Origin: Thiofilum flexile DSM 14609
GTDB lineage: Bacteria > Pseudomonadota > Gammaproteobacteria > Thiotrichales > Thiotrichaceae
Direction: 5' to 3'
Length of the DNA: 64,000 bases
NCBI RefSeq assembly: GCF_000380185.1
Contig: NZ_KB904752.1
Span: forward strand, 1 to 64,000
The notes beneath the pieces were generated by a model. It was not told the DNA's origin. It saw only the letters and a program-made list of their open reading frames with translations, and searched no databases. Shown piece after piece: positions 16,999-61,162 of the stretch; the stretch's first letter is position 1; each line of letters starts with the position of its first letter. The translations under genes and the position numbers were made by a program.

Positions 16999-17623
16999 GA
17001 TATTTTTATATAGTTATTAAAAGTAATATATCCATCTTATTCTTCATGCTCTGCAACGAGATGAAAGAGACCCTATTACCAAAGTTTAAAAAATAGAGCT
17101 TTCTTGGTTTAAGCTTTTTTATTATTAGGGAAATTAGTCTGGGTGCTATTATTAGGTTGTTAGGTTTATTAATTAAAAATGACAACTGAATTAAGGTATT
17201 TTTATTTATATAAAGATTAAGCCCCAGTAAACCTCTTATTTATAATAGGCTACAGTCTTCATATTAGTCATTTAACTATATACTAGCGAGCTGGATAATA
17301 GTTTATTTTAGATGATGTATAAGACCCAAAAACCTTAATTAATAATTATCATAGGGAATAAGAAAAGTCAATCTGAAAACAAGGTTCTTTTAGCTTTTTA
17401 CTAAAAGTATCAATAGCTAAGAGCAAATTTTGACAGTCTTGACAATAAAGTCAGTAGAGTTTGTAAGGATATTTAGTTTTAATAATAAAAGTGTGGTTAA
17501 TATTTTATCGGACTATCAAGATACCCTCTCCTAAATTATCTTTAATTAAACGCTATAATTCCCCCTAAAGAGCTGCTATGATCTGCACCCTCTTATCAAC
17601 CTATAATCTGGAGCTTTGGATAC
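16999..17623. other. AT-rich divergent intergenic region between the giant array and rpsO
   Basis: These 625 bases contain no convincing gene. They must hold the leftward promoter of the giant array and the rightward rpsO promoter. TATAAT at 17554-17559 is a plausible -10 for rpsO, although the -35 is weak. TTGACA sequences occur near 17428-17445. I could not define the leftward promoter. Confidence 0.5.
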
Positions 17624-17893
17624 ATGTCTCTGAGTGCAGAAGAAAAAGCGGCAATCGTCACCGATTATCGCCAGTCAGATACTGATACCGGGTCGCCGGA
17701 GGTGCAGGTTGCGCTATTAACAGCGAGCATTAAGCACCTTACCGAGCACTTTAAAATTCATACCCATGACCATCATTCACGTCGTGGTATGTTAAAAATG
17801 GTTAACCAACGTCGTAAATTGTTGGACTACCTCAAACGTAAAGATAATGCACGTTATCAAACGCTGATTGAGCGTCTCGGTCTGCGTCGCTAA
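17624..17893 (+). CDS. rpsO: 30S ribosomal protein S15
   Basis: The 89-aa product has the standard S15 length and sequence. [16 protein letters not shown] is followed by the S15 signature region ([44 protein letters not shown]) and ends IERLGLRR. S15 binds the central domain of 16S rRNA early in small-subunit assembly and often represses its own translation. A GGAG sequence sits about 10 bases before the ATG. The gene has its own terminator before pnp, as in other gammaproteobacteria. Confidence 0.98.
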
Positions 17894-23663: not shown

Positions 23664-23917
23664 CGCGGTTAACTCCTGTTAATGAGGTAATTAGCCTGAG
23701 CTGGTTATAATTTTTGCGTTATAGCTGTTTGTCGTTAAATGATAACTCTTTTATAGCTAAGGCTATTAAAAATAAGATAAATGGATGGATTTTGTTAAAT
23801 ACTATTTAACTAGATTTGTATTAGAAGAGTGGGATGAGTGTGATATTAGCGCTAGGGTGGTGGCTAATGTTGCAATATTGACACACTGGTTTTAATCACG
23901 TAGCTTTCTCGCCTCCT

Positions 23918-24125
23918 AGGTGCGTCTAGTGGAGGATACATTCCTATCCTTACACGAAAGACGATAAACGGGAAGTTGGTGCGTAATAGTCCACTATTAT
24001 TAAGCCAACGCTGCCCCCGCAACGGTAAATGAGTACGCTATTGCATCAATGTCACTGTGAGTAGTCATGGGAAGACGCAATAGGGAATTTAGCTATTCCA
24101 CTCATAAGCCCGGATACCGGCCTAA
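23918..24125 (+). ncRNA. Cobalamin (adenosylcobalamin-type) riboswitch
   Basis: The conserved elements occur in order. GGTGCGTC is near 23919, GGGAAGTTGGTG follows, then CTGCCCCCGCAACGGTAA (the B12-box region, about 24030-24050), CACTG, GGGAAGACGC, and AAGCCCGGATACCGGCC closing near 24122. It ends about 80 bases before the btuB start, so it is set to shut off the B12 receptor and adenosyltransferase genes when cobalamin is plentiful. Confidence 0.93.
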
Positions 24126-24203
24126 GATTCTTGAGTTCTGTTATTGAGCTTGTTCTTTTTTTACCTTGTTACTGCGCGGTGGGCGCGGTAGTTGGATAGC
24201 CTT

Positions 24204-26687: not shown

Positions 26688-26750
26688 TCTAAGTGTACAG
26701 GCTGTTGTGGCAACGGTTCTGCTTTTTTATTTGTTTATGAACCAGATAGA

Positions 26751-26919
26751 TTTTTCTGCATTAAAAACAAGCTTGCTTATAAGTTTTAAATATGGCAATT
26801 TAATAGTAAAAGTGCAGCTTGAATGCAAAATAATTAATTAATATTAAAAACATATCGAAAATCAAAATAAATAGCCTAATGAAAATAATTTAAAATTATA
26901 ACTCTGGGTAAAAAATATT
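26751..26919 (+). promoter_or_regulatory. Leader/promoter region copy A (upstream of giant member 4)
   Basis: This AT-rich segment starts TTTTTCTG.ATTAAAAACAAG and ends CTCTGGGTAAAAAATAT before the ATG. It is closely repeated at 33381-33542 ahead of member 5. The best-kept part (26760-26812) is the probable promoter/regulatory core. I could not fix -35 and -10 boxes with confidence. Confidence 0.55.
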
Positions 26920-29900
26920 ATGTCTATAAAGTATACTCTCTATTCCTTATCTAGAGGTGGAGGGGGGCGTTTGTTGCTAAAACCCTTCCTGATAATGTTA
27001 CTATTTCTTACTTTTTCCCTCAGCAATGCCTATGCTGCTACGACCCTGAGTGGAACGGTCTTTGATGATCCCAATTATGGTGGGGGCGCTGGGCGCAGCT
27101 TAACCACCTCCAGTGGAGTAGGGGTCAGTGGTGCCACCATTGAGTTATACGATGCTACTGGTACGTTAGTGACCACGGTAACCAGCGCTGGCGGAGGTGC
27201 TTATAACTTTGCGACGGTAGATCCGGGTGATTACTATGTGCGGGTTGTGAGTGATAGCGTGAACTCCAGCCGCAGTGGTTCAACGGGGGCAGAGCTAGGA
27301 GTCATGACCTTCCGCACGGATGGTACAACGGATGTTACCAGTGAAGTCGGGGGACGTAATCCAGCAGTAGCCGATAGTGCCGCCAATAGTGGTACAGAAA
27401 CCCTCAACACGACAACGTTTGTTTTATCGGGTGGGGGACAAGCCCAAGCAGTACAACCCATTACCGTTGGAGCTACACCGATTAGCGGCGTGGACTTTGG
27501 TTTTAACTTCAGCACCATCGTCAATACCAATAATGCGGGGCAAGGCTCGTTACGGCAATTTATTCTTAATAGTAATCTTTTAGCCAATACGGGATTAGAT
27601 CAAGTAGACAATCCTAGTGATGGCGCACCGGATCCAGCAGCGGGGGTAGAAACCTCCATCTTTATGATTCCGGGGAGCGGTGCCCATACCATTAGCCTTA
27701 GTAGTATTTTACCTACTATTACCGGAGCCGCTACCGCTATCGATGCCAGTACCCAAGATGGAGTGAGCTGTAGCGCGGCTACTCGTACTTTAACCGTGAC
27801 CTTAGATGGAACCAGTGCAGGAAGTCTGGTCAGTGGTTTAAATATTGATGCGGCTAATGTCCATGTACGTGGTATTGCCATTGGTAAGTTTACGGAGTCG
27901 GGCATTACAGGGACAGCGAATGGTGATGGCTTAGTCGTGACCTGTAGCAATTTAGGTCTAGCGGCGGATGGTACTACACTCCTCACCAATACCTTACACG
28001 GTATCCATGCGAAGAGTGGTCTAAGTGGTTTAATCCTCGGCGGTAGCTCGGTAGATGACCGCAATATTATCTCTGGCAATGCCCGTAATGGAGCCTTTTT
28101 AGAGGGGGCTTCTAATGCCATTATTGATCATAACTATATTGGTACCAGTGCGGATGGGTTATCTGCTCGTTCTAATAATCGCGAGGGAGTTGCTTATGCG
28201 GGGATTGTCACATCAGCAGCGGCAGCGACCAATATCATGATTCGCAATAATCTGATTTCTGGTGGTGATATTATTACCGGAACAGGGCCGGTTAATGTCA
28301 CTAGTGGTATTCGTCTAGAGAATTTAAGTAATAATATTACCATTACGGGCAATTTAATTGGTACGAATCCTAGCGGTACCGCCGCTTTAGCCAATACCGG
28401 CTATGGTATTTATATTCAAAATGTCACCGATATCACTATCGGGGGACTCACGGCGGCGGAACGCAATATTATTTCGGGGAATGGTAAAGACGGTATTAAT
28501 ACCCGTTTTGGCACCAAACGCCTGAATATTTATGGTAACTACATTGGTGTCGATATTACCGGCACAGTGGCTCTAGGTAATACGGATAATGGTATTTTCT
28601 TAGCCGATACCCAAACCACCAATATTGGTAATGCTGATCCTTCAGGGCGCAATATTATTACCGGCAATAAAATCAGCGGTATTCGCAATAGTGCTTCCAC
28701 CATTACCTCGATCGCGGGTAACTATATCGGGGTGGATGCCACAGGCACAGCAGCGCCAGGTAATACCTTACATGGTATTTTCGTACAAAATTCCAGTGAT
28801 GTGACCATCGGGGGTAGCACGGTAGGGGCACGCAATGTGGTCTCTGGTAATAAAGTGATTGGTATTTTCATGCAAAATATTAACGCTGCCACTACTACTA
28901 CTACCCGCATCGAAGGCAACTATATTGGTCTATTACCCGATGGGGATACTGCAGCCGGTAATACTCAGTCAGGGATTGAAAGCTCGTGGTCTGCAGGTAC
29001 ATTAACCGGCAATGTGATTCATAACAATGTTATTTCAGGCAATAAGACGCGCGGGATTCACCCTGTGAATAGTGCCAGTACTACTATTACTAATAATATT
29101 ATCGGTTTAAATGCGGCAGGTACGGCTGCCCGTCCAAACATAGAGCATGGGATTGATATTGATATCGCTGCCAGTGATTTATTGATCGAGAACAATGTTA
29201 TTTCAGGGAATACTAAATCGGGTATTCGGGTGTTCACGGGTACGGCTACGAACGGGCGGATTATTAATAATCGGATTGGTGTGGGTGTTGATGGTGTTAC
29301 CGCTTTTGGCAATAGTATTTCAGGGATTTTGATCGACGGCGCTACGGGTATTACGGTGGGCGGCAGTGGGGCAACCGATTCCAATATTATTGCTTATAAT
29401 ACAGGCGATGCCGTATCTCTCACTGGTACGGGTAGCAAGGCGAATATTATTAGTCGCAATATCATGTTTGCGAATACAAACCTAGGTATCGATTTAGATG
29501 ATAATAATGTCACCCTTAATGATGGTAGTGCGCTCAGCACCGGAGCCAATGAGGGCTTGAACTTCCCACAATTCAAACAAGTTACCTTATTAGGTGGCAA
29601 TTTAACCGTAAATGGTTGTGCGCCTGCGGGGGCTACTATTGAGCTATTTGAGGCCGATGTATCACCGACTTCTGGCTCTGGCGTGGCAGCAGGCTCGAAT
29701 CAAATAGGGCGTACGCTAGATTATGGTGAGGGTGAGCGTTATTTAGCGACCTTTGTCGAGGGTGTGGGTGAGGAAACACCGACTACTACCATTGACTGCG
29801 CAACATTGACCGATACAGATGCGAATAATGCTACCGGAATGAGTGTGTTCCAATGGACGATACCAGTTCCTAGCAATGTTGTATTAGGGGATAAGCTAAC

Positions 29901-33261: not shown

Positions 33262-33380
33262 ATTGGATAATTAGCTAATCAACAGTAAGAGATATTATTT
33301 TTATTGATAATAATATAACCAATACCGAAGTTAATTTGTTTGAGTGTTTATCTGGCAATTTTAATGCTTAATAGCAGTCT

Positions 33381-33542
33381 TTTTTCTGTATTAAAAACAA
33401 GCTTGCTTATAAGTTTTAAATATGGCAATTTAATATAGAAGTGTCACTTGGTTTTAATATATTTATATTAAAAATATATCAGAATCAAAATAAATAGCCT
33501 GATGAAAATAATTTAAAATTATAACTCTGGGTAAAAAATATC
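33381..33542 (+). promoter_or_regulatory. Leader/promoter region copy B (upstream of giant member 5)
   Basis: This is a diverged copy of 26751-26919, including TTAAAAACAAGCTTGCTTAT and the AACTCTGGGTAAAAAATAT before the start codon. It gives member 5 its own promoter downstream of the member 4 terminator. The preceding 33262-33380 shows nothing recognisable. Confidence 0.55.
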
Positions 33543-36500
33543 ATGTCTATAAAATATACTCTCTATCCCTTTTTCAGAGGTGGTGGGGGTCATTTTTCTC
33601 TCAAACCCTCCTTTCTTATCTTACTGCTGCTTACCTTTTTCCTCAGCAATGCCTATGCTGCCACGACCTTGAGTGGAACGGTCTTTGATGATCCCAATTA
33701 TGGTGGGGGAGCCGGACGCAGCTTAGCCACTTCCAGTGGATTAGGGGTCAGTGGTGCCACCATTGAGTTATACGATGCTACTGGTACGCTAGTGACTACG
33801 GTAACCAGCGCCGGTGGGGGCGCTTATAACTTTGCGACGGTAGATCCGGGTGATTACTATGTGCGGGTTGTGAGTGATTCAGTAAACGCCAGCCGCAGTG
33901 GTTCAACGGGTGCCGAGCTAGGGGTGATGACCTTCCGCACTGATGGTACTACAGATGTCACTAGTGAAGTGGGGGGGCGCAATCCCGCTGTAGCCGATAG
34001 TGCCGCCAATAGTGGTACAGAAACCCTCAACACGACAACGTTTGTTTTATCGGGTGGGGGACAAGCCCAAGCAGTACAACCCATTACGGTTGGAGCCACA
34101 CCGATTAGCGGCGTGGACTTTGGTTTTAACTTCAGCACCATCGTCAATACCAATAATGCGGGGCAAGGTTCGTTACGGCAATTTATTCTTAATAGCAATC
34201 TCTTAGCCAATACTGGCCTCGATCAAGTAGATAATCCCAGTGATGGCGCACCGGATCCAGCGGCGGGGGTAGAAACCTCCATCTTTATGATTCCGGGGAG
34301 CGGTGCCCATACCATTAGCCTTAGTAGTATTTTACCTACTATTACCGGAGCGGCTACCGCTATCGATGCCAGTACCCAAGACGGGGTGAGCTGTAGCGCG
34401 GCTACTCGTACTTTAACCGTGACCTTAGATGGAACCAGTGCAGGAAGTCTGGTCAGTGGTTTAAACATTGATGCAGCTAATGTCCATGTGCGTGGTATTG
34501 CGATTGGTAAGTTTACGGAGTCGGGTATTACAGGGACAGCGAATGCCGATGGCTTAGTCGTGACCTGTAGCAATTTAGGGTTAGCTGCCGATGGGACTAC
34601 ACTCCTAACTAATACCTTACACGGTATCCATGCTAAGAGTGGTCTAAGTGGTTTAATCCTCGGCGGTAGCTCGGTAGATGACCGCAATATTATCTCTGGT
34701 AATGGACGCAATGGAGCCTTTTTAGAAGGGGCTTCTAATGCCATTATTGATCATAACTATATTGGTACCAGTGCGGATGGCTTGTCGGCTCGTTCTAATA
34801 ATCAGGAGGGAGCCGCAACATATGGTGGGGTTGCCACCTCAACCGTAGCCGCCACCAATATTATGATCCGTAATAACCTGATTTCAGGGGGGAGTATTAT
34901 TGTAGGGATTAATGTTACCAGCGGTATTCGTTTAGAGAATTTAAGTAATAATATTACCGTGACCGGTAACTTGATCGGTACTAATCCTAGTGGTACAGCC
35001 GCTTTAGCGAATAGTGGTTATGGTATTTATATTCAAAATGCCACCGATATCACTATCGGGGGACTCACCGTAGCCGAGCGCAATATTATTTCGGGGAATG
35101 GTAGAGATGGTATTAATACTCGTTTTGGTACCAAACGGGTCAATATCTATGGTAACTATATCGGGGTGGACATTACCGGAGCGGTTGCATTGGGTAATAC
35201 CGATAATGGTATTTTCTTAGCCGATACCCAAACCACCAATATTGGTAATGCGGATCCTTCAGGGCGCAATATTATTACTGGCAATAAAATCAGCGGTATT
35301 CGCAATAGTGCTTCTACCATTACCACGATCGCGGGTAACTATATTGGGGTAGATGCTTCGGGTACAGCAGCACTGGGGAATACCTTACACGGTATTTATG
35401 TACAAAACTCCATCGATGTAACCATTGGGGGGAGTACGGTAGGGGCACGTAATGTGGTCTCTGGTAATAAAACGATTGGTATCTTCCTGCAAAACAGCTC
35501 GTCTACCGCGACCACTACTGCCCGCATCGAAGGTAACTATATTGGCCTATTACCCGATGGGGATACCGCAGCCGGTAATACTCAATCAGGGATTGAAAGC
35601 GCGTGGTCTGTGGGGACACTAACCGGCAATGTGATTCACAATAACGTCATTTCTGCGAATAAAACCCGTGGAATTCATCCTGTGAATAGTGCCAATACCA
35701 CGATTACCAATAATATCGTGGGTTTAAATGCGGCGGGTACGGCGGCTCGTCCAAATCTTGAGCATGGTATTGATATTGATATCGCCGCCAGTAATTTATT
35801 GATCGAGAACAATATTGTTTCGGGCAATACCAAGGCCGGTATTCATGTGCTTTCAGGTACGGCTACCAATAGTCGAATTATAAATAATAAGATCGGTGTG
35901 GCAGGTGATGGAGTAACAGCATTTGGTAATGGAATGTCTGGGGTATGGTTAGAGGGTACTAACAGTGTCACCGTGGGCGGCAGTGGCGCAACCGATGCGA
36001 ATATTATTGCCCATAACACGGGCGATGGCGTGTCGCTGAGTGGCACCAATAATAAAATGAACATTATTAGTCGCAATATGATCTTTGCGAATAGTAATCT
36101 AGGGATTGATTTAGATAAAAATAATGTCACCCTCAATGATGGCAGTGCGCTTAGTACCGGAGCCAATGAGGGACTGAATTTCCCGCAATTTAAACAGGTG
36201 GCTTTGTTAGGTGGTAATTTAACCATAAATGGTTGTGCGCCTGCGGGAGCTACCATTGAGCTATTTGAGGCGGATGTATCACCCACTTCAAGCTCTGGTG
36301 TCGCGGCAGGTTCTAATCAAATAGGCCGTACGCTAGATTATGGTGAGGGGGAACGTTATCTCGCTACCTTTGTCGAGGGGGTAGGCGAGGAAGTGCCGAC
36401 TACAGCCATTGACTGTGCCACCTTGACCGATAGTGATGCCAATAATGCTACCGGAATGAGTGTGTTCCAATGGACGATACCTGCCCCTAGCAATATCGTA

Positions 36501-52162: not shown

Positions 52163-52220
52163 ACTTCTGCTCGTGTAGATTTTGTGAGGATCACCTCATG
52201 AAATTACACGAGGCAGAAGT
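52163..52220 (+). repeat. Long imperfect hairpin, copy 1 (after pckA)
   Basis: Two arms of about 27 bases, beginning ACTTCTGC and ending GCAGAAGT, pair almost end to end around the loop ATCA, with a few bulges. A diverged copy lies at 56684-56736, after giant member 6. It may terminate pckA, though no T run follows. It marks the left edge of the duplicated unit. Confidence 0.7.
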
Positions 52221-52362
52221 GCCATTACTCTTGAATAGCTCCCCACATTCTTAACCGATTCCACAGACAACTTTGTCGCCTATAAAGCTGATTATACACC
52301 CTGTCGCTTTGGTAAATAATTCCTTGATAAACAAATAGTATGTCATAACAGTTAAAAATTTC

Positions 52363-52430
52363 TTGACTTATGAAACAATTGTTTCATAATAATGATTTTA
52401 TCTTGACATATGAAACGATTATTTCATAAT
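52363..52430 (+). promoter_or_regulatory. Two tandem promoters with palindromic operators (upstream of giant member 6)
   Basis: Promoter one is TTGACT (52363-52368), a 16-base spacer and CATAAT (52385-52390). Promoter two is TTGACA (52403-52408), 16 bases and CATAAT (52425-52430), exactly 40 bp later. In the first the sequence 52369-52388 (TATGAAACAATTGTTTCATA) is a perfect 20-bp palindrome. The second keeps TATGAAA and TTTCATA arms. Each palindrome fills the -35/-10 spacer, where a dimeric repressor would block RNA polymerase. The start codon is about 380 bases further on. Confidence 0.75.
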
Positions 52431-52809
52431 AATAAGGTTAATTGAGGTAAAAAAATTATAATAGGCCATTTTTTAAAGAAATGATCTTAGTTATGGATCA
52501 GTATTCCAAGATTTAATTATTACACAATATTTTAGATAAATTTTAAGTGACTAGAATAAATTTTGATTTTGTACACTACGTTCATATTAAAAATAGAAGC
52601 TTATGATCTCATTACACATTAAATCAGATAAACATAGGTTAGCTATAATTTTTTGAATTTTATAGTTTAGGTGGGTGGGTTATTGTGATTGTCTTAATTT
52701 TTTTAATAAAGTCTATAAAATCTTAAGTTATTAAGATAGCTACTTAATTAGCTTAATCTATTTTGAATTATTTATATAACAACTATAGCAATATAGGGCG
52801 GGTATAATC
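52431..52809 (+). other. Long AT-rich leader of giant member 6
   Basis: These 380 bases between the promoters and the ATG have no gene. The leader is largely repeated, with substitutions, at 56981-57370. It ends GCGGGTATAATC directly before the ATG, also repeated, and no purine-rich Shine-Dalgarno sequence is present. Confidence 0.55.
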
Positions 52810-55800
52810 ATGCTAAAAATAGCTAGTTTTAAAGTCAAACTGTATTGGCTATACAGTCTATTTCTCTTACTTTTTTATTTTCCTGTACCCGCGTTAGCGG
52901 CAGTACCGGCTATTGGGGGTTCTAGTACTTGTACGGCTACCGGGGGTACCGATGTACTTTTTCTAGTGGATGACTCAGGATCGGTCACTGACGCAGAATA
53001 TACTGAGTTTGCTGCAACCATAGTGAATATCGGTAATACACTGCTGGCTGCTAATCCAGCCACCCGTCTGGCTGTGGCTCATTATGCAGGGCCTGATACT
53101 GGCCCTGAGATTGGTCAACAGATCTTTCTTGAGCGTGATTTTTCGACCGCTGCACTCTCCTCTCCTGTACGTCATTTTGCCCAAACTTTGCTGTATACTG
53201 ATCATTTGGCAGGCTCTGTTTATCAAGTGAGCTATGCGCTGGATGGAGATGCTGCTACCACCTCTAGTTATATTGTAAGCCCTCTCAAAGAACTTAGTCG
53301 TGATTTAAACCGTCCTTTGCAAATTGTGGATTTTACCGATGCAATGCGAGCGGAGTCATACGGCACCGCCGTACTCCCTGGCGAAGCCAGTGCTATGATT
53401 GATATTCCGGGGTATGACTATGAACCCAATGATGCCTCTAACTTTACCATCTTCAATATATTAAAAAACCAAGGGGTTAAGTTTTCAGTAGCACTTCTTA
53501 GTTCACCTGCACCAGCGGTGACTAACCCCGCCGCCGCCGCCATTGCCTCGGTGGGTGGATCGTGGACAGGTGCTATAGAAGATAATCCGGTGGATCCTGA
53601 AGGATCTAAGACTCTCCCTAGACGTTTTGAAACCTCCGCTACTACTTTCACACTCTCTGCCACACAAATTACGAATTTTGTTACCCCCATTGCTAATATG
53701 TGCCCCTATAATGTTAATGCAGCGCCTGTGATTAGCAGTAATGGGGGTGGCGATACGGCCGCTATTAGTGTGGCGGAGAATCAAACCGCAGTGACAACAG
53801 TGACCGCCACCGATGCCGACGGGGATACCCTGACTTATAGCATTACGGGTGGAGCGGATGCGGCTAAGTTCACCATCAATAGTAGTACGGGTGTCTTACA
53901 ATTTGCCACAGCCCCTGACTATGAAGCGCCTACCGATAGTGGAGCTAATAATGTTTATGACGTTCAAGTGACGGTATCGGATGGCAGAGGTGGTACGGAT
54001 CTGCAAACCATTGCCGTGACAGTGACGGATGTCGCTGAAAGCATACCTGTTATTGGAGGTTCTGGTACTTGTACGGCTACGGGGGGTACCGATGTTGTGT
54101 TTCTATTGGATAACTCAGGATCTGTCCTTGCGGCAGAATATACTGAATATGCCTCAACGGTGGTGAGTATCGGTAATGCGCTGCGTACTGCTAATCCAGC
54201 CACTCGTATTGCTGTCGCTCATTTTGCAGGCCCCTTGAGTGGTATACCCTTCTCCGATTATGGCCAGTATCTCTCTCTAGAGCGTGACTTCTCAACCGCT
54301 GCGCTCTCCTCGCCTGTACGTCAATTTCCCAGCATTTATAACTATGGTGAGGACAATCTAGCCGGTGCTGTTACTCAATTGAGCTATGCGCTGGATGGGA
54401 ATGCCAGTACTACCTCTAGTTTTGTTCTAAGCTCGCTCAAAGAGCTAAACCGTGATTTAACTCGCCCCTTACAAATCGTCATTTTCACCGATGCCTATCG
54501 AGACGGGTCTGTCGCTGGTTCTGCCATGATTGATGGGGTGGGGTATGGTTATGAGCCGAATGATGGGTCAAACTTTACCATCTATAACCTCTTAAAAGCC
54601 CAAGGTGTTAAGTTTTCAGTCGCAGCGCTTACGCTACCTAATGGAATCACAGCCGATGAGCGTGATAAAGCGGCAGCTGCCATTGCCTCCGTGGGTGGAT
54701 CTTGGACGGGTATTATAGAAAGTAATCCGGTGGATCCTGAGGGATCTCAGACTAGCCCTAGACGTTATGAAACCTCTTCTACCTTCACACTGTCTGCTGC
54801 ACAAATTAGTAACTTTGTAACATCAATCGCTAATATCTGCGGTCCTAATGTAGCACCTGTGATTACCAGTAATGGTGGTGGTGCAACAGCGGCTATTAGT
54901 GTGGCAGAAAATCAAACGGCTGTTACAACAGTCACAGCCACCGATGCGGATGGGGATACTCTCACTTATAGCATTACAGGTGGAGCGGATGCCGCTAAGT
55001 TCACCATCGATAGCAGTACGGGGGTCTTACAGTTTGCTACAGCCCCCGACTTTGAAACGCCTACCGATTCTGGAGGCAATAATGTTTATGATGTTCAAGT
55101 CACTGTATCGGACGGTAATGGTGGTACAGATATGCAAGACATTGCAGTCACAGTGACGGATGTAGCTGAAAATGTGGCACCCGTGATTACCAGTAATGGG
55201 GGTGGTGATACCGCCGCTATTAGTGTGGCAGAAAACCAAACTGCAGTGACAACAGTGACAGCCACCGATGCCGACGGGGATACCTTAACCTATAGCATTA
55301 CAGGTGGAGCGGATGCGGCTCTGTTCACTATTGATAACAGTACCGGCGTTTTACAATTTGTCACAGCTCCCGACTATGAAGCCCCCACCGATACCGGAGC
55401 TGATAATGTTTATGATGTTCAAGTCACTGTATCGGATGGTAAGGGTGGTACGGATATGCAAGCGATTAGTGTTACCGTGACGGATGTAGCTGAAAATGTG
55501 GCCCCCGTGATTACTAGCAATGGAGGCGGTGATACTGCCTCTATTAGTGTGGCAGAGAATCAAACCGCCGTTACAACAGTTACCGCTACCGATGTGGATG
55601 GGGACAACCTCACTTATAGCATTACAGGTGGAGCGGATGCCGCTAAGTTCACTATTGATAACAGTACCGGCGTTTTACAATTTGTCACAGCTCCTGACTA
55701 TGAAAATCCTACCGATACCGGAGCCGATAATGTTTATGATGTTCAAGTGACGGTATCCGATGGTAAGGGTGGTACGGATATGCAAGCGATTAGTGTTACT

Positions 55801-56604
55801 GTTACGGATGTCGCTGAGGGGGGAGTCGTCTTACAAGTGAGAGGCTTTTTACAAGGGCCGTTTAGTAGCGAAACTCAGCTAATGTATGATTCATTACGTA
55901 CTAAAAACTTAATCCCTAGTACTCAACCTTATACCGCTGCGCCCTTTAATTACTCAGGAACTGAGCAACTCAATGCTGCTTTGTTAACCGTGAGTGATTC
56001 AAATGCGATAGTTGATTGGGTATTAGTCGAGTTACGTAATGCGACTAACCCTAGTACCCTCGTAGCACAAAAAGCTGCCTTACTACAACGAGATGGTGAT
56101 GTGGTTACAGCGGATACAGGTAGTGTGGATCTGACCTTTGCGAGTGTGGCGGCGGGTAATTACTATGTGGTCTTACGTCATCGTAATCACTTAGGTGTTA
56201 TGAGTGCGAGTGCTTTAGCTTTAAGCCCTGTCCCTAGTCTGGTTGATTTTACCTTATCCGCTACCGCTGTTTATGGCAGCTATGCTCGGTTAGAGGTGGA
56301 TAGCAAGGCGGTTATGTGGGCGGGGGATGCGAATAAAAGCAATCAAGTGATCGCCAATGGCCCTAATAATGATGTCAATGATCTATTAGGCCCTGTATTA
56401 GTTTATGAAAGCAATTCATTACTAAATAGTAACTATCAATTAGCGGGGTATCGTATATCGGATATCGATATGAATGGCTATACGCTGTTTGCAGGCCCTA
56501 GTAATGACACCAATATTGTCATTGGTAATGTATTAATGCACCCCAGTAATACTAGCCTTTCAGCCAATTTTGTGATCCCAGGTACTATTCCAAACGTCCA
56601 ATAA
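52810..56604 (+). CDS. Secreted vWA/cadherin modular protein, 1264 aa (giant family member 6)
   Basis: A signal peptide (SFKVKLYWLYSLFLLLFYF, cleavage near A30) is followed by a vWA domain (about 34-300, MIDAS DDSGS in VLFLVDDSGSVTDAEY), a cadherin-like repeat (303-410), a second vWA domain (413-680, MIDAS DNSGS, later FTDAYRDGS), three cadherins (680-1003) and the family C-terminal domain (1006-1264, LQVRGFLQGPF to GTIPNVQ). The second vWA domain is closest to that of member 2, 45 kb away. The first is more diverged, and its later acidic site reads DFTDAMRAES. It is probably a metal-dependent surface adhesin. It is expressed from its own operator-controlled promoters. Confidence 0.87.
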   Translation: MLKIASFKVKLYWLYSLFLLLFYFPVPALAAVPAIGGSSTCTATGGTDVLFLVDDSGSVTDAEYTEFAATIVNIGNTLLAANPATRLAVAHYAGPDTGPEIGQQIFLERDFSTAALSSPVRHFAQTLLYTDHLAGSVYQVSYALDGDAATTSSYIVSPLKELSRDLNRPLQIVDFTDAMRAESYGTAVLPGEASAMIDIPGYDYEPNDASNFTIFNILKNQGVKFSVALLSSPAPAVTNPAAAAIASVGGSWTGAIEDNPVDPEGSKTLPRRFETSATTFTLSATQITNFVTPIANMCPYNVNAAPVISSNGGGDTAAISVAENQTAVTTVTATDADGDTLTYSITGGADAAKFTINSSTGVLQFATAPDYEAPTDSGANNVYDVQVTVSDGRGGTDLQTIAVTVTDVAESIPVIGGSGTCTATGGTDVVFLLDNSGSVLAAEYTEYASTVVSIGNALRTANPATRIAVAHFAGPLSGIPFSDYGQYLSLERDFSTAALSSPVRQFPSIYNYGEDNLAGAVTQLSYALDGNASTTSSFVLSSLKELNRDLTRPLQIVIFTDAYRDGSVAGSAMIDGVGYGYEPNDGSNFTIYNLLKAQGVKFSVAALTLPNGITADERDKAAAAIASVGGSWTGIIESNPVDPEGSQTSPRRYETSSTFTLSAAQISNFVTSIANICGPNVAPVITSNGGGATAAISVAENQTAVTTVTATDADGDTLTYSITGGADAAKFTIDSSTGVLQFATAPDFETPTDSGGNNVYDVQVTVSDGNGGTDMQDIAVTVTDVAENVAPVITSNGGGDTAAISVAENQTAVTTVTATDADGDTLTYSITGGADAALFTIDNSTGVLQFVTAPDYEAPTDTGADNVYDVQVTVSDGKGGTDMQAISVTVTDVAENVAPVITSNGGGDTASISVAENQTAVTTVTATDVDGDNLTYSITGGADAAKFTIDNSTGVLQFVTAPDYENPTDTGADNVYDVQVTVSDGKGGTDMQAISVTVTDVAEGGVVLQVRGFLQGPFSSETQLMYDSLRTKNLIPSTQPYTAAPFNYSGTEQLNAALLTVSDSNAIVDWVLVELRNATNPSTLVAQKAALLQRDGDVVTADTGSVDLTFASVAAGNYYVVLRHRNHLGVMSASALALSPVPSLVDFTLSATAVYGSYARLEVDSKAVMWAGDANKSNQVIANGPNNDVNDLLGPVLVYESNSLLNSNYQLAGYRISDIDMNGYTLFAGPSNDTNIVIGNVLMHPSNTSLSANFVIPGTIPNVQ

Positions 56605-56614
56605 TACGACTCAT

Positions 56615-56648
56615 ACTTCCTTTCTATTCATTAGGATAGAAAGGAAGT
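56615..56648 (+). terminator. Hairpin after giant member 6
   Basis: A perfect 13-bp stem, ACTTCCTTTCTAT/ATAGAAAGGAAGT, with an 8-base loop lies about 10 bases past the stop codon. There is no T tract. The same hairpin follows member 7 at 61173-61206. Confidence 0.6.
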
Positions 56649-56683: not shown

Positions 56684-56736
56684 TTCTGCTCGTGTGAGCT
56701 TCGTGAGTATTACTTCATGAAGCTACACAAGGCAGA
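56684..56736 (+). repeat. Long imperfect hairpin, copy 2 (after giant member 6)
   Basis: This is the counterpart of 52163-52220. Arms starting TTCTGC and ending GCAGA pair through CGTGTGAGCTTCGTGAG and TTCATGAAGCTACACA. Where copy 1 has ATTT/AAAT in the stem, copy 2 has AGCTT/AAGCT, so both arms changed together and pairing is kept. Confidence 0.65.
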
Positions 56737-56952
56737 GCCGCTATTACTGCTGAGTGACTCTCTTCCTTCCCCTCATTCTTAACCGACTCTACTTTCGAGC
56801 AGGTTATTACCTACCTTTTTCATTCAGATTAGCCTAATAGGCTGCTAGCACTAGATCACTTCGCTGTCTATGAAGCTGATCATACACCCTATCGCCTTGG
56901 TAAATAATTCCTTGATAAATAAAGAGTATGTCATAATAGTTAAAATTTTTTC

Positions 56953-56980
56953 TTGACTTACGAAGCAATAATTTCATAAT
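56953..56980 (+). promoter_or_regulatory. Single promoter with degenerate operator (upstream of giant member 7)
   Basis: TTGACT (56953-56958), a 16-base spacer and CATAAT (56975-56980) match the member 6 promoters. The spacer palindrome is degraded on its left arm (TACGAAG) but keeps TTTCATA on the right. Only one of the two tandem copies is present. The leader 56981-57370 follows and holds no gene. A minus-strand reading frame at 56834-57019 has no support. Confidence 0.65.
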
Positions 56981-57370: not shown

Positions 57371-60300
57371 ATGCTAAAAATAGCTAGTTTCAAAATCAAA
57401 CTGTATTGGCTATACAGTCTATTCCTCTTACTTTTTTATTTTCCTGTACCCACGTTAGCCGCAGCACCTGCTACTGGAGGTTCTACGAGCTGTACGGCTA
57501 CCGGGGGTACCGATGTCATTTTTCTATTGGATAACTCAGGCTCTGTCCTTGCTGGAGAGTATGCTGACTATGCCTCAACGGTGTTGAGTATCGGTAATGC
57601 GCTGCGTACTGCTAATCCAGCCACCCGGATTGCTGTCGCTCATTTTGCAGGCCCCTTGAGTGGTGTACCCTTCGCCGATTATGGACAGTATCTCTCTCTG
57701 GAGCGTGACTTCTCAACGGCTGCACTTTCCTCCCCTGTCCGTCAATTTCCCAGCATTTATAATTATTCTGAGGACAATCTAGCGGGCGCTGTGAATCAAT
57801 TGAGCTATGCGCTTGATGGAAATGCCAGCACCACCTCTAGTTTTATTCTAAGCCCCCTCAAAGAGCTGAGTCGTGACTTAACTCGTCCTTTACAAATCGT
57901 CATTTTCACCGATGCCTATCGAGACGGGTCTATCTCTGGTTCTGCTATGATTGATGGGGTGGGATATGGTTACGAGCCTAATGATGGATCAAACTTTACT
58001 ATCTATAACCTATTAAAAGCGCAAGGTGTTAAGTTTTCAGTCGCCGCACTTACGCTACCTAATGGAATCACAACAGATGAGCGTGATAAAGCGGCTGCAG
58101 CGATTGCCTCGGTCGGTGGATCTTGGACGGGTATTATAGAAAGTAATCCGGCTGATCCTGAGGGGTCTCAGACTAGCCCTAGACGCTATGAAACCTCCGC
58201 TACCTTCTTACTGTCTGCTGCACAAATTAGTAATTTCGTTACCCCCATCGCTAATATCTGCCCTCCTAATGCAGTTCCTGTGATTACCAGCGATGGTGGC
58301 GGGGATACCGCTGCTATTAGTGTGGTAGAGAACCGAACCGCTGTCACAACAGTCACCGCCACGGATGCCAATGGAGATACCCTCACTTATAGCATTACCG
58401 GTGGAGCGGATGCGGCTAAGTTCACCATCGATAGCAGTACTGGCGTCTTACAATTTGTCACCGTTCCTGACTACGAAGCGCCCACCGATAATGGAGCCAA
58501 TAATGTTTATGATGTTCAAGTGACTGTAGCGGATGGTAAAGGCGGCACGGATATGCAGGCCATTGCAGTGACCGTGACGGATATGTTTGATAATCCCGTA
58601 CCGGCTATTGGAGGTTCTGGTCTTTGTACGGCGACGGGGGGGACAGATGTACTTTTTCTTTTGGATAACTCAGGATCTATTGTTCCGGCAGAATATACGG
58701 ACTTTGCCTCCACGGTGGTGAAAGTGGGTAATGCGCTGCGTACTGCTAATTCAGCCACCCGTATTGCAATAGCTCATTATGCCGGGTCTCTTGGAGGAGC
58801 AGATTTTGGTCAAAATGTCTATTTTGAGCGTAATTTTTCAACGGCGTCTGTCGCCTCTCCAGTACGCCGATTTACTCCTCCTTCTACCCCTAATATGACC
58901 GAAGATAATATGGCGGGGGCTATTTATCAAATGAGTTATGCCCTTGATGGAAATGCCAGTACCACCTCTAGTTATATTGTCGGCTCTCTTAAGGAGCTGA
59001 GTCGTGATTTAACCCGCACTTTACAAATCGTTATTTTCACGGATGCGACTCGGTACTATCCCGACTCCTCAGCCATCATTGATGGTGAGGGGTTTGGCTA
59101 TGAGCCTAATGATGGATCAAACTTTACTATCTATAATTTATTAAAAGCCCAAGGTGTTAAGTTTTCAATTACAGCGCTTTCGATAGCGGAAACAGTAGGG
59201 GGGGAAACGGTGGAGATGCGTGATGCTGCTGCCGCTGCTGTGGCCTCCGTCGGTGGGTCTTGGACAGGTGGTATAGAAACTAATCCAAATGATCCAGAAG
59301 GGTCTCAAACCTCTCCAAGGCGTTTTGAAACCACGACTAACTTTTTACTTAATGCGACACAAATTACTAATTTCGTTACCCCCATCGCTAATATCTGCCC
59401 GCTCAATGCAGTACCTGTGATTACCAGTAATGGTGGTGGAGCAACGGCCGCTATTAGTATGGCAGAAAATAAAACAGCGGTAACGACAGTAACAGCCACT
59501 GATGCTGATAACGATATCTTGACCTTTAGTATTACCGGTGGAGCGGATGCGGCTAAGTTCACCATCAATAGTAGTACTGGCGTCTTACAATTTGTCACAG
59601 CTCCCGACTATGAAGCGCCTACCGATTCTGGAGCCAATAATGTTTATAATGTTCAAGTCACAGTCGCTGATGGCAAAGGTGGCACAGATATGCAGGCCAT
59701 TGCGGTGACAATAACTAATGTGGTGGCTGAAAATGCTCCCCCAGTGATTACCAGTAATGGTGGTGGTGATACAGCCGCTATCAGTGTGCCAGAAAATCAA
59801 ACCGCAGTTACAACCGTCACCGCGACGGATGCGAATGGGGATACCTTAACCTATAGCATTACAGGTGGAACTGATGCAGCTAAGTTCACCATCAATAGCA
59901 GTACGGGCGTCTTACAATTCGTTACAGCACCAGACTTTGAAACGCCTACCGATAATGGGGCTAATAATGTTTATGATGTTCAAGTCACGGTCTCCGATGG
60001 CAAAGGCGGCACAGATATGCAAGCCATTGCAGTCACAGTGACTAATGTGGTTGAAAATGTTCCCCCTGTGATTACCAGCAATGGTGGTGGAGATACCGCA
60101 GCAATCAGTGTGGCGGAGAATCAAACTGCAGTCACAACGGTCACGGCAACTGATGCGGACGGGGATACCCTGACTTATAGCATTACAGGTGGAGCGGATG
60201 CGGCTAAGTTCACCATCAATAGTAGTACCGGAGTTTTACAATTTGTCACCGCTCCCGACTATGAAGCGCCAACCGATAGCGGAGGCAATAATGTTTACGA

Positions 60301-61162
60301 CGTTCAAGTGACAGTCTCTGATGGCAAAGGCGGCACGGATATGCAGGCTATTGCAGTCACAGTGACTAATGTGGCTGAAGGTGTTGTATTACAAGTGAAG
60401 GGTTTCTTACAAGGGCCGTTTAATGCTGAGACTTATTTGATGCATGATTCATTACGTATTCTCAATATAATCCCTAATAGCCAACCCTATACGATAACCC
60501 CCTTCGGCTATACTGGCACAGAGCCGTTAAATAATACTCTGCTAACAGTCAGTGGTGTTGATGCTATAACTGACTGGATACTAGTCGAGTTACGTAATGC
60601 GACTAACCCTTCTATCATAGTGGCACAACAAGCGGCTCTCTTACAGCGTGATGGGGATGTGGTGACGGCGGATACCGGGAGTGTGAATCTGACGTTTGCG
60701 AGTGTGATGGCGGGTAATTACTATGTGGTCTTACGTCATCGTAATCACTTAGGTGTTATGAGCGCGAGTGCTGTAGCTTTAGGTTCTGCGCCTAACTTAG
60801 TTGATTTTACCTTATCCGCTACCGCTGTTTATGGCAACAATGCACGGTTAGTGGTGGATAGTAAAGCCGTTATGTGGGCAGGGGATGCGAATAAAAGCAA
60901 TCAGGTGATCGCAAATGGCCCTAATAATGATGTCAATGGTCTATTAGGACCCATATTAGTGTATGAAGGTAATACATTACTGAATAGTAACTATCAATTA
61001 AATGGGTATCGTATATCCGACGTCGATATGAATGGCTATACGCTATTTGCAGGCCCTAGTAATGATACTAATCTTGTCATAGGTAATGTTTTAATGCACC
61101 CCGGCAATGCTAGCTTTTCAGCAAACTTTGTAGTGCCAGGTACTATTCCAAACGCCCAATAA
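57371..61162 (+). CDS. Secreted vWA/cadherin modular protein, 1263 aa (giant family member 7)
   Basis: This is the tandem duplicate of member 6, with the same signal peptide (cleavage near A30), layout and length. vWA domain 1 (about 35-298, MIDAS DNSGS) is followed by a cadherin-like repeat (298-405), vWA domain 2 (411-678, DNSGSIVPAEY, with FTDATRYYPDS), three cadherins (679-1000) and the family C-terminal domain (1003-1263, LQVKGFLQGPFN to GTIPNAQ). The first vWA domain of this protein resembles the second of member 6 and that of member 2, so modules have been exchanged or converted. It is probably exported and surface-exposed. Confidence 0.87.
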   Translation: MLKIASFKIKLYWLYSLFLLLFYFPVPTLAAAPATGGSTSCTATGGTDVIFLLDNSGSVLAGEYADYASTVLSIGNALRTANPATRIAVAHFAGPLSGVPFADYGQYLSLERDFSTAALSSPVRQFPSIYNYSEDNLAGAVNQLSYALDGNASTTSSFILSPLKELSRDLTRPLQIVIFTDAYRDGSISGSAMIDGVGYGYEPNDGSNFTIYNLLKAQGVKFSVAALTLPNGITTDERDKAAAAIASVGGSWTGIIESNPADPEGSQTSPRRYETSATFLLSAAQISNFVTPIANICPPNAVPVITSDGGGDTAAISVVENRTAVTTVTATDANGDTLTYSITGGADAAKFTIDSSTGVLQFVTVPDYEAPTDNGANNVYDVQVTVADGKGGTDMQAIAVTVTDMFDNPVPAIGGSGLCTATGGTDVLFLLDNSGSIVPAEYTDFASTVVKVGNALRTANSATRIAIAHYAGSLGGADFGQNVYFERNFSTASVASPVRRFTPPSTPNMTEDNMAGAIYQMSYALDGNASTTSSYIVGSLKELSRDLTRTLQIVIFTDATRYYPDSSAIIDGEGFGYEPNDGSNFTIYNLLKAQGVKFSITALSIAETVGGETVEMRDAAAAAVASVGGSWTGGIETNPNDPEGSQTSPRRFETTTNFLLNATQITNFVTPIANICPLNAVPVITSNGGGATAAISMAENKTAVTTVTATDADNDILTFSITGGADAAKFTINSSTGVLQFVTAPDYEAPTDSGANNVYNVQVTVADGKGGTDMQAIAVTITNVVAENAPPVITSNGGGDTAAISVPENQTAVTTVTATDANGDTLTYSITGGTDAAKFTINSSTGVLQFVTAPDFETPTDNGANNVYDVQVTVSDGKGGTDMQAIAVTVTNVVENVPPVITSNGGGDTAAISVAENQTAVTTVTATDADGDTLTYSITGGADAAKFTINSSTGVLQFVTAPDYEAPTDSGGNNVYDVQVTVSDGKGGTDMQAIAVTVTNVAEGVVLQVKGFLQGPFNAETYLMHDSLRILNIIPNSQPYTITPFGYTGTEPLNNTLLTVSGVDAITDWILVELRNATNPSIIVAQQAALLQRDGDVVTADTGSVNLTFASVMAGNYYVVLRHRNHLGVMSASAVALGSAPNLVDFTLSATAVYGNNARLVVDSKAVMWAGDANKSNQVIANGPNNDVNGLLGPILVYEGNTLLNSNYQLNGYRISDVDMNGYTLFAGPSNDTNLVIGNVLMHPGNASFSANFVVPGTIPNAQ

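Follow-up and report, generated by a model that had tools for sequence, protein, structure and literature searches.

Regulators of the RpiR family are known both as metabolic regulators and as regulators of surface proteins. In Aeromonas hydrophila, the RpiR-family protein IolR directly represses RmpA, as demonstrated by EMSA and deletion, and RmpA is an adhesin of 223 kDa that combines VCBS, VWA and RTX parts (PMC7239862). IolR of Caulobacter crescentus, also of the RpiR family, works with GGAA-N6-TTCC (PMC2597717), and the RpiR-family NanR of Streptococcus pneumoniae has been crystallised on TCTGAAAGTACTTTTAGA (PMC12713135). In Burkholderia the NanR-like SapR, an activator, controls the surface attachment protein sap1 (PMC9884982). 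Here we describe a candidate locus of this kind in Thiofilum flexile, in a 64-kb window (the whole stretch of DNA analysed, 64,000 nucleotides), where a doubled promoter with palindromes stands before a putative adhesin gene, member 6.

Tandem putative promoter-operator units before member 6

The features upstream of member 6, and the gene itself, are as follows.

52361..52440, + strand: tandem unit, two head-to-tail 40-bp units with 85% identity
52363..52390, + strand: promoter 1 of member 6, TTGACT-16-CATAAT, in the register of the RpiR operon promoter on contig C57
52368..52389, unstranded: putative operator copy 1, 22-bp perfect palindrome TTATGAAACAATTGTTTCATAA; PWM score 22.0 bits, the maximum
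52403..52430, + strand: promoter 2 of member 6, TTGACA-16-CATAAT, 11/12 sigma-70-like
52409..52428, unstranded: putative operator copy 2, TATGAAACGATTATTTCATA, one mismatch to TATGAAACN4GTTTCATA; PWM score 16.1 bits
52434..52809, + strand: predicted 5' leader of member 6, about 373 nt, 23% GC
52810..56604, + strand: member 6, 1264 aa, with VWA, cadherin and Big_9 domains and a signal-peptide-like N-terminus; putative adhesin

The region reads TTGACT-TATGAAACAATTGTTT-CATAAT at 52363-52390 (copy 1) and TTGACA-TATGAAACGATTATTT-CATAAT at 52403-52430 (copy 2), which confirms, in sequence and in coordinates, the first-pass annotation of TTGAC(T/A), a palindrome and CATAAT occurring twice before member 6 at a 40-bp period. 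In copy 1 the -35 element TTGACT occupies 52363-52368, the palindrome 52369-52388 and the -10 element CATAAT 52385-52390; the corresponding parts of copy 2 are TTGACA at 52403-52408, the palindrome at 52409-52428 and CATAAT at 52425-52430. Both copies have a 16-bp spacer, and the description of the palindrome as exactly filling it was slightly off because the palindrome, at 20 bp, runs on into the -10 element by four bases. The claim of two perfect palindromes holds for copy 1, which is symmetric for 11 bp each way (22 bp, 52368-52389), but not for copy 2, in which 16/20 positions are symmetric. The 40 bp between the copies corresponds to ~3.8 helical turns, and therefore two bound dimers would not lie exactly on one face of the helix.

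The sigma-70-like matches of the two promoters (11/12 for promoter 2, 10/12 for the other) are the two best in the 710-bp gap before member 6, and promoter-like matches across the whole gap were no more numerous than in its shuffles. The leader was searched for a long open frame, a known riboswitch and unusual RNA structure (z = -0.15), and none was found; a search for plasmid DNA resembling the member 6 promoter region also found none. The putative assignment of member 6 as an adhesin comes from its domains.

Several other features accompany these genes in the window. A long, very stable hairpin lies upstream of member 6 (~52163-52220, about -35 kcal/mol) and of member 7 (~56684-56740, about -28 kcal/mol), each downstream of the preceding gene and in these two copies only within the window; they are possibly a terminator or a REP-like element. 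The member 6 stop codon is followed directly by a perfect inverted repeat (56615-56648; 13-bp arms, 8-base loop) that is possibly the terminator of that gene. Members 4 and 5 share a conserved upstream block (ATTAAAAACAAGCTTGCTTATAAGTTTTAAATATGGCAATTTAATA, ~26750-26920 and ~33370-33543) that differs from the sequence before members 6 and 7; the paralogs thus seem to be driven from different promoters. No operator within two mismatches was found for members 1 to 5 in the 64-kb window. Elsewhere, a cobalamin riboswitch (23901-24139, 93.7 bits) stands just 5' of an ORF at 24192 that is TonB-dependent receptor-like, and a ribosomal S15 leader (17565-17680, 48.5 bits) just 5' of an 89-aa ORF.

The C57 locus and its conserved candidate operator

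Genome scans, done by pattern only, bore out the expectation that they would lead to the regulator's own promoter: exactly one other promoter of this build was found, and it is the divergent promoter of a regulator gene. In the 3.79-Mb genome TATGAAACN4GTTTCATA has two perfect occurrences, member 6 copy 1 and G000:C57:95462-95481, and one with a single mismatch, member 6 copy 2; there are no sites with two mismatches in the 3.79 Mb. The architecture TTGACN3TGAAACN5TTTCA occurs at three places genome-wide, namely both member 6 copies and the divergent promoter of the RpiR gene, and was not found across 56 related genomes. By chance, given the size and composition of the genome, 0.028 occurrences of TATGAAAN6TTTCATA would be expected, and 0.0007 per genome of TTGACN3TGAAACN4GTTTCA under a third-order Markov model. 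The core TGAAAC-N4-GTTTCA alone is expected 0.33 times per genome under the same type of model and 0.2 times by simulation, and the argument therefore depends on the complete architecture. What we observe directly is the sites, how rare they are and their identity with the promoter conserved beside the C57 regulator.

Seven other core sites with one mismatch exist in the genome and were rejected as operators, every one of them overlapping an open reading frame. Allowing two mismatches gives 34 sites, vs 30 for a reversed control pattern, which is no excess over background; loose regulon lists are therefore noise, and the two- and three-mismatch regulon scans, at or near that background, were discarded. 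A further cadherin/GEVED/VWA family member lies elsewhere in the genome (L099:3252-6719; G000:C8:47251-50718), and a three-mismatch operator-like site at C8 47206-47225, 26-45 bp before its start codon, was too weak to count.

The genes at the C57 locus are as follows.

G000:C57:95504-96349: RpiR/MurR-family regulator, HTH_6 + SIS
C57 operon: 5-FTHF-cycloligase-like protein, NMT1/THI5-like (NMT1-type) binding protein, ABC ATPase and ABC permease

The C57 site lies in the 81-bp divergent gap between the regulator gene and the operon, with TTGACT in the same register as in the member 6 copies and CATAAT after it. The regulator has an N-terminal HTH_6 domain (PF01418, E 1.5e-10) and a C-terminal SIS domain (PF01380, E 5.8e-13), each passing its curated cut-off, and was the sole RpiR/MurR-family match found in the genome in one protein search. 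The earlier proposal of control by an unlinked dimeric regulator is thus well supported by sequence, the sole other promoter of this kind being that of the RpiR gene itself; the TetR/MarR candidates it had named give way to a regulator of the RpiR/MurR family (HTH_6 + SIS). The effector bound by the SIS domain of RpiR/MurR-family regulators is usually a phosphosugar. The C57 operon contains no sugar genes, and we found no description of an RpiR-family regulator of such an ABC operon in the literature searched.

Among the 56 related genomes there is no close ortholog of the C57 regulator (best 29%) or of the cycloligase-like protein (best 26%), whereas alphaproteobacterial matches reach 78% and 85%, respectively, and in a tree the host regulator falls among alphaproteobacterial proteins. 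The simplest reading is that the regulator was likely acquired from an alphaproteobacterial group. Base composition (GC 0.50 in the C57 operon vs 0.48-0.49 in its neighbours) neither supports nor excludes transfer and, not being decisive, was set aside as a sign of it.

Footprinting covered 13 alphaproteobacterial orthologs, from a Maritimibacter MAG (L053), a Roseinatronobacter plasmid (L054) and 11 genomes of family f74 (presumably Rhodobacteraceae). In all 13 a cycloligase-like gene is divergent to the regulator with TGAAAC-N4-GTTTCA between them, exact in eight and with one change in five:

Exact core: L053, L054, L063, L064, L065, L068, L070, L071
One-change core: L062, L066, L067, L069, L072

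In 7/13 (L053, L062, L064, L065, L066, L067 and L070) the core is preceded by TTGAC at a distance of three or four bases, and the helix-turn-helix stretch GVSKATTARFF is identical in the host protein and most orthologs. An extra TGAAAC half-site lies six bases downstream of the core in 12/13 orthologs and at C57; it is absent after member 6 copy 1, where a second full palindrome follows 40 bp on instead. Ten such genomes were scanned, and the seven that hold the exact core have one copy each, six at the divergent promoter and one (G473) adjoining another gene of the HTH_6 + SIS type. An exact TGAAAC-N4-GTTTCA also stands in the gap upstream of a second alphaproteobacterial gene of the RpiR family (L102, ~1501-1516), which suggests that a wider RpiR branch uses the same operator.

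A PWM trained on the 13 alphaproteobacterial sites, with zero sites from the T. flexile genome, gave copy 1 and the C57 site the maximum score (22.0 bits), copy 2 16.1 bits and the member 7 site 6.7 bits. Chance alone would supply 12.5 sites per genome that score at least as high as copy 2; copy 2 counts because it adjoins copy 1 and has the -35 register, and not by its PWM score alone.

Predicted repression of member 6 and the member 7 site

From these sequences, the tandem palindromes are quite probably operators for the C57 RpiR/MurR-family repressor, placed over the two member 6 promoters. A regulator dimer on TGAAAC-N4-GTTTCA would sit between the -35 and -10 elements, cover part of the -10 and block RNA polymerase; a protein filling the stretch from -35 to -10 is most naturally predicted to repress. 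The block would act at the C57 divergent operon and at both tandem promoters of member 6, and binding of a ligand by the SIS domain would release the C57 operon and member 6 together. The doubled 40-bp unit would provide two promoters and two operators, probably with stronger off and on states. Binding, repression, the ligand response and a difference between members 6 and 7 are what we infer from the sequence. Counting against the RpiR model are the lack, at member 6, of the downstream TGAAAC half-site of the cognate promoters, the ~3.8-turn offset between the two dimers and the predicted ~373-nt 5' leader, which is long for a bacterial gene. Counting against repression is that some RpiR proteins activate, SpNanR being one example (PMC12713135).

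TATGAAA/TTTCATA palindromes are not necessarily exclusive to RpiR proteins, and the link to RpiR is drawn from sequence, so the sites might serve another dimeric repressor (TetR, MarR or other) of which the RpiR operon is merely one target. We regard this as unlikely, as the core is kept beside RpiR orthologs in 13 other genomes and the further exact alphaproteobacterial copy also adjoins an RpiR-family gene. That the 40-bp unit is nothing more than a strong promoter in duplicate, with an accidental palindrome and no regulator, is less probable still: the -35 and -10 elements are well kept in both units and simple tandem duplication would give such a pair, yet TTGACN3TGAAACN4GTTTCA, at 0.0007 expected occurrences per genome, recurs exactly at the RpiR promoter.

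We also considered a promoter for a MerR-type activator, read as TTGAC(T/A)-19-AATAAT, in which the dyad would lie at the centre of a 19-bp spacer, since AATAAT (5/6 of the -10 consensus) does stand 19 bp after the -35 element in both member 6 copies and at member 7. At C57, however, the 19-bp alternative is the weaker AATCAT, whereas CATAAT at 16 bp is kept, and the conserved neighbour is an RpiR gene and not a MerR gene, which makes this reading highly improbable.

The paralog of member 6 has a related promoter.

56953..56980, + strand: member 7 promoter, TTGACT-16-CATAAT, with degenerate operator TACGAAGCAATAATTTCATA at 56959-56978; PWM score 6.7 bits, background
57371..61162, + strand: member 7, 1263 aa, paralog of member 6 with 77% identity

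The single decayed copy that had been noticed at 56953-56980 is present and degenerate, its site (56959-56978) having two mismatches to TATGAAA-N6-TTTCATA and three to the fuller consensus. Member 7 has TACGAAGC in place of member 6's TATGAAAC, and because the two member 6 copies share TATGAAAC with the C57 site, the changes at member 7 are most simply losses. Its operator score is not above the genome background (~612 such sites expected per genome), and the earlier suggestion of a partial loss of control fits the site scores, 6.7 bits vs 22.0 and 16.1. Member 7 keeps one promoter and an operator that has lost conserved bases, and is probably no longer controlled by the RpiR regulator. In our reading of the sequences the left half of its single copy is like copy 1 and the right half like copy 2; either recombination between the repeats may have removed 40 bp from member 7, or a single unit may have been doubled at member 6.

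Copy 1 and the C57 site also have bases in common outside the core, CTTGACTTA before it and TAATNATGA after it. These flanking bases would favour descent of the member 6 promoter from a copy of the C57 promoter over convergence, although the segment they span is short. Under a tentative history, to which we give somewhat less than an even chance, a metabolic repressor from alphaproteobacteria was wired onto a resident adhesin gene, ~36 bp of promoter-operator being possibly copied from the repressor's own operon and then doubled, and the paralog subsequently lost the link.

From an anonymous palindrome the analysis arrives at a specific regulator/operator pair that can be tested, with the operator TGAAAC-N4-GTTTCA defined by footprinting. 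If the regulator does control member 6, nutrient uptake would be tied to surface adhesion via an apparently acquired regulator, and member 7 would be an internal control for regulatory rewiring.

Comparison with described regulators

The Aeromonas IolR-rmpA system is like the one proposed here in joining an RpiR-family metabolic repressor to a giant VWA surface adhesin, control of member 6 being predicted from sequence. The Aeromonas case concerns an inositol operon, whereas the C57 regulator stands with an NMT1-type ABC operon; the adhesin there has VCBS and RTX parts, whereas member 6 combines VWA with cadherin and Big_9 domains; and the tandem 40-bp promoter-operator of member 6 has no described counterpart in the part of that report available to us.

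Caulobacter IolR resembles the C57 case in its four-base arms, its N6 spacing and its place beside a transport/catabolic module, but its arms are GGAA/TTCC and not GAAA/TTTC, and its known targets are metabolic. SpNanR is likewise an RpiR-family protein on a TGAAA-type palindrome, and its dimer/tetramer, with a further half-site proposed downstream, counts as another likeness; it has four bases between the arms and is an activator, whereas the sites here have six and are predicted to mediate repression. Burkholderia SapR, like the predicted C57 regulator of member 6, regulates a surface attachment protein, but it is an activator whose binding sites were not mapped in PMC9884982, and a repressor is predicted here. 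The kind of system is thus already known, both in the RpiR-family operator and in the precedent for RpiR-family repression of a VWA-containing adhesin; what is new is the specific predicted regulator-adhesin link, the operator definition for this branch of regulators and the probable acquired origin of the regulator.
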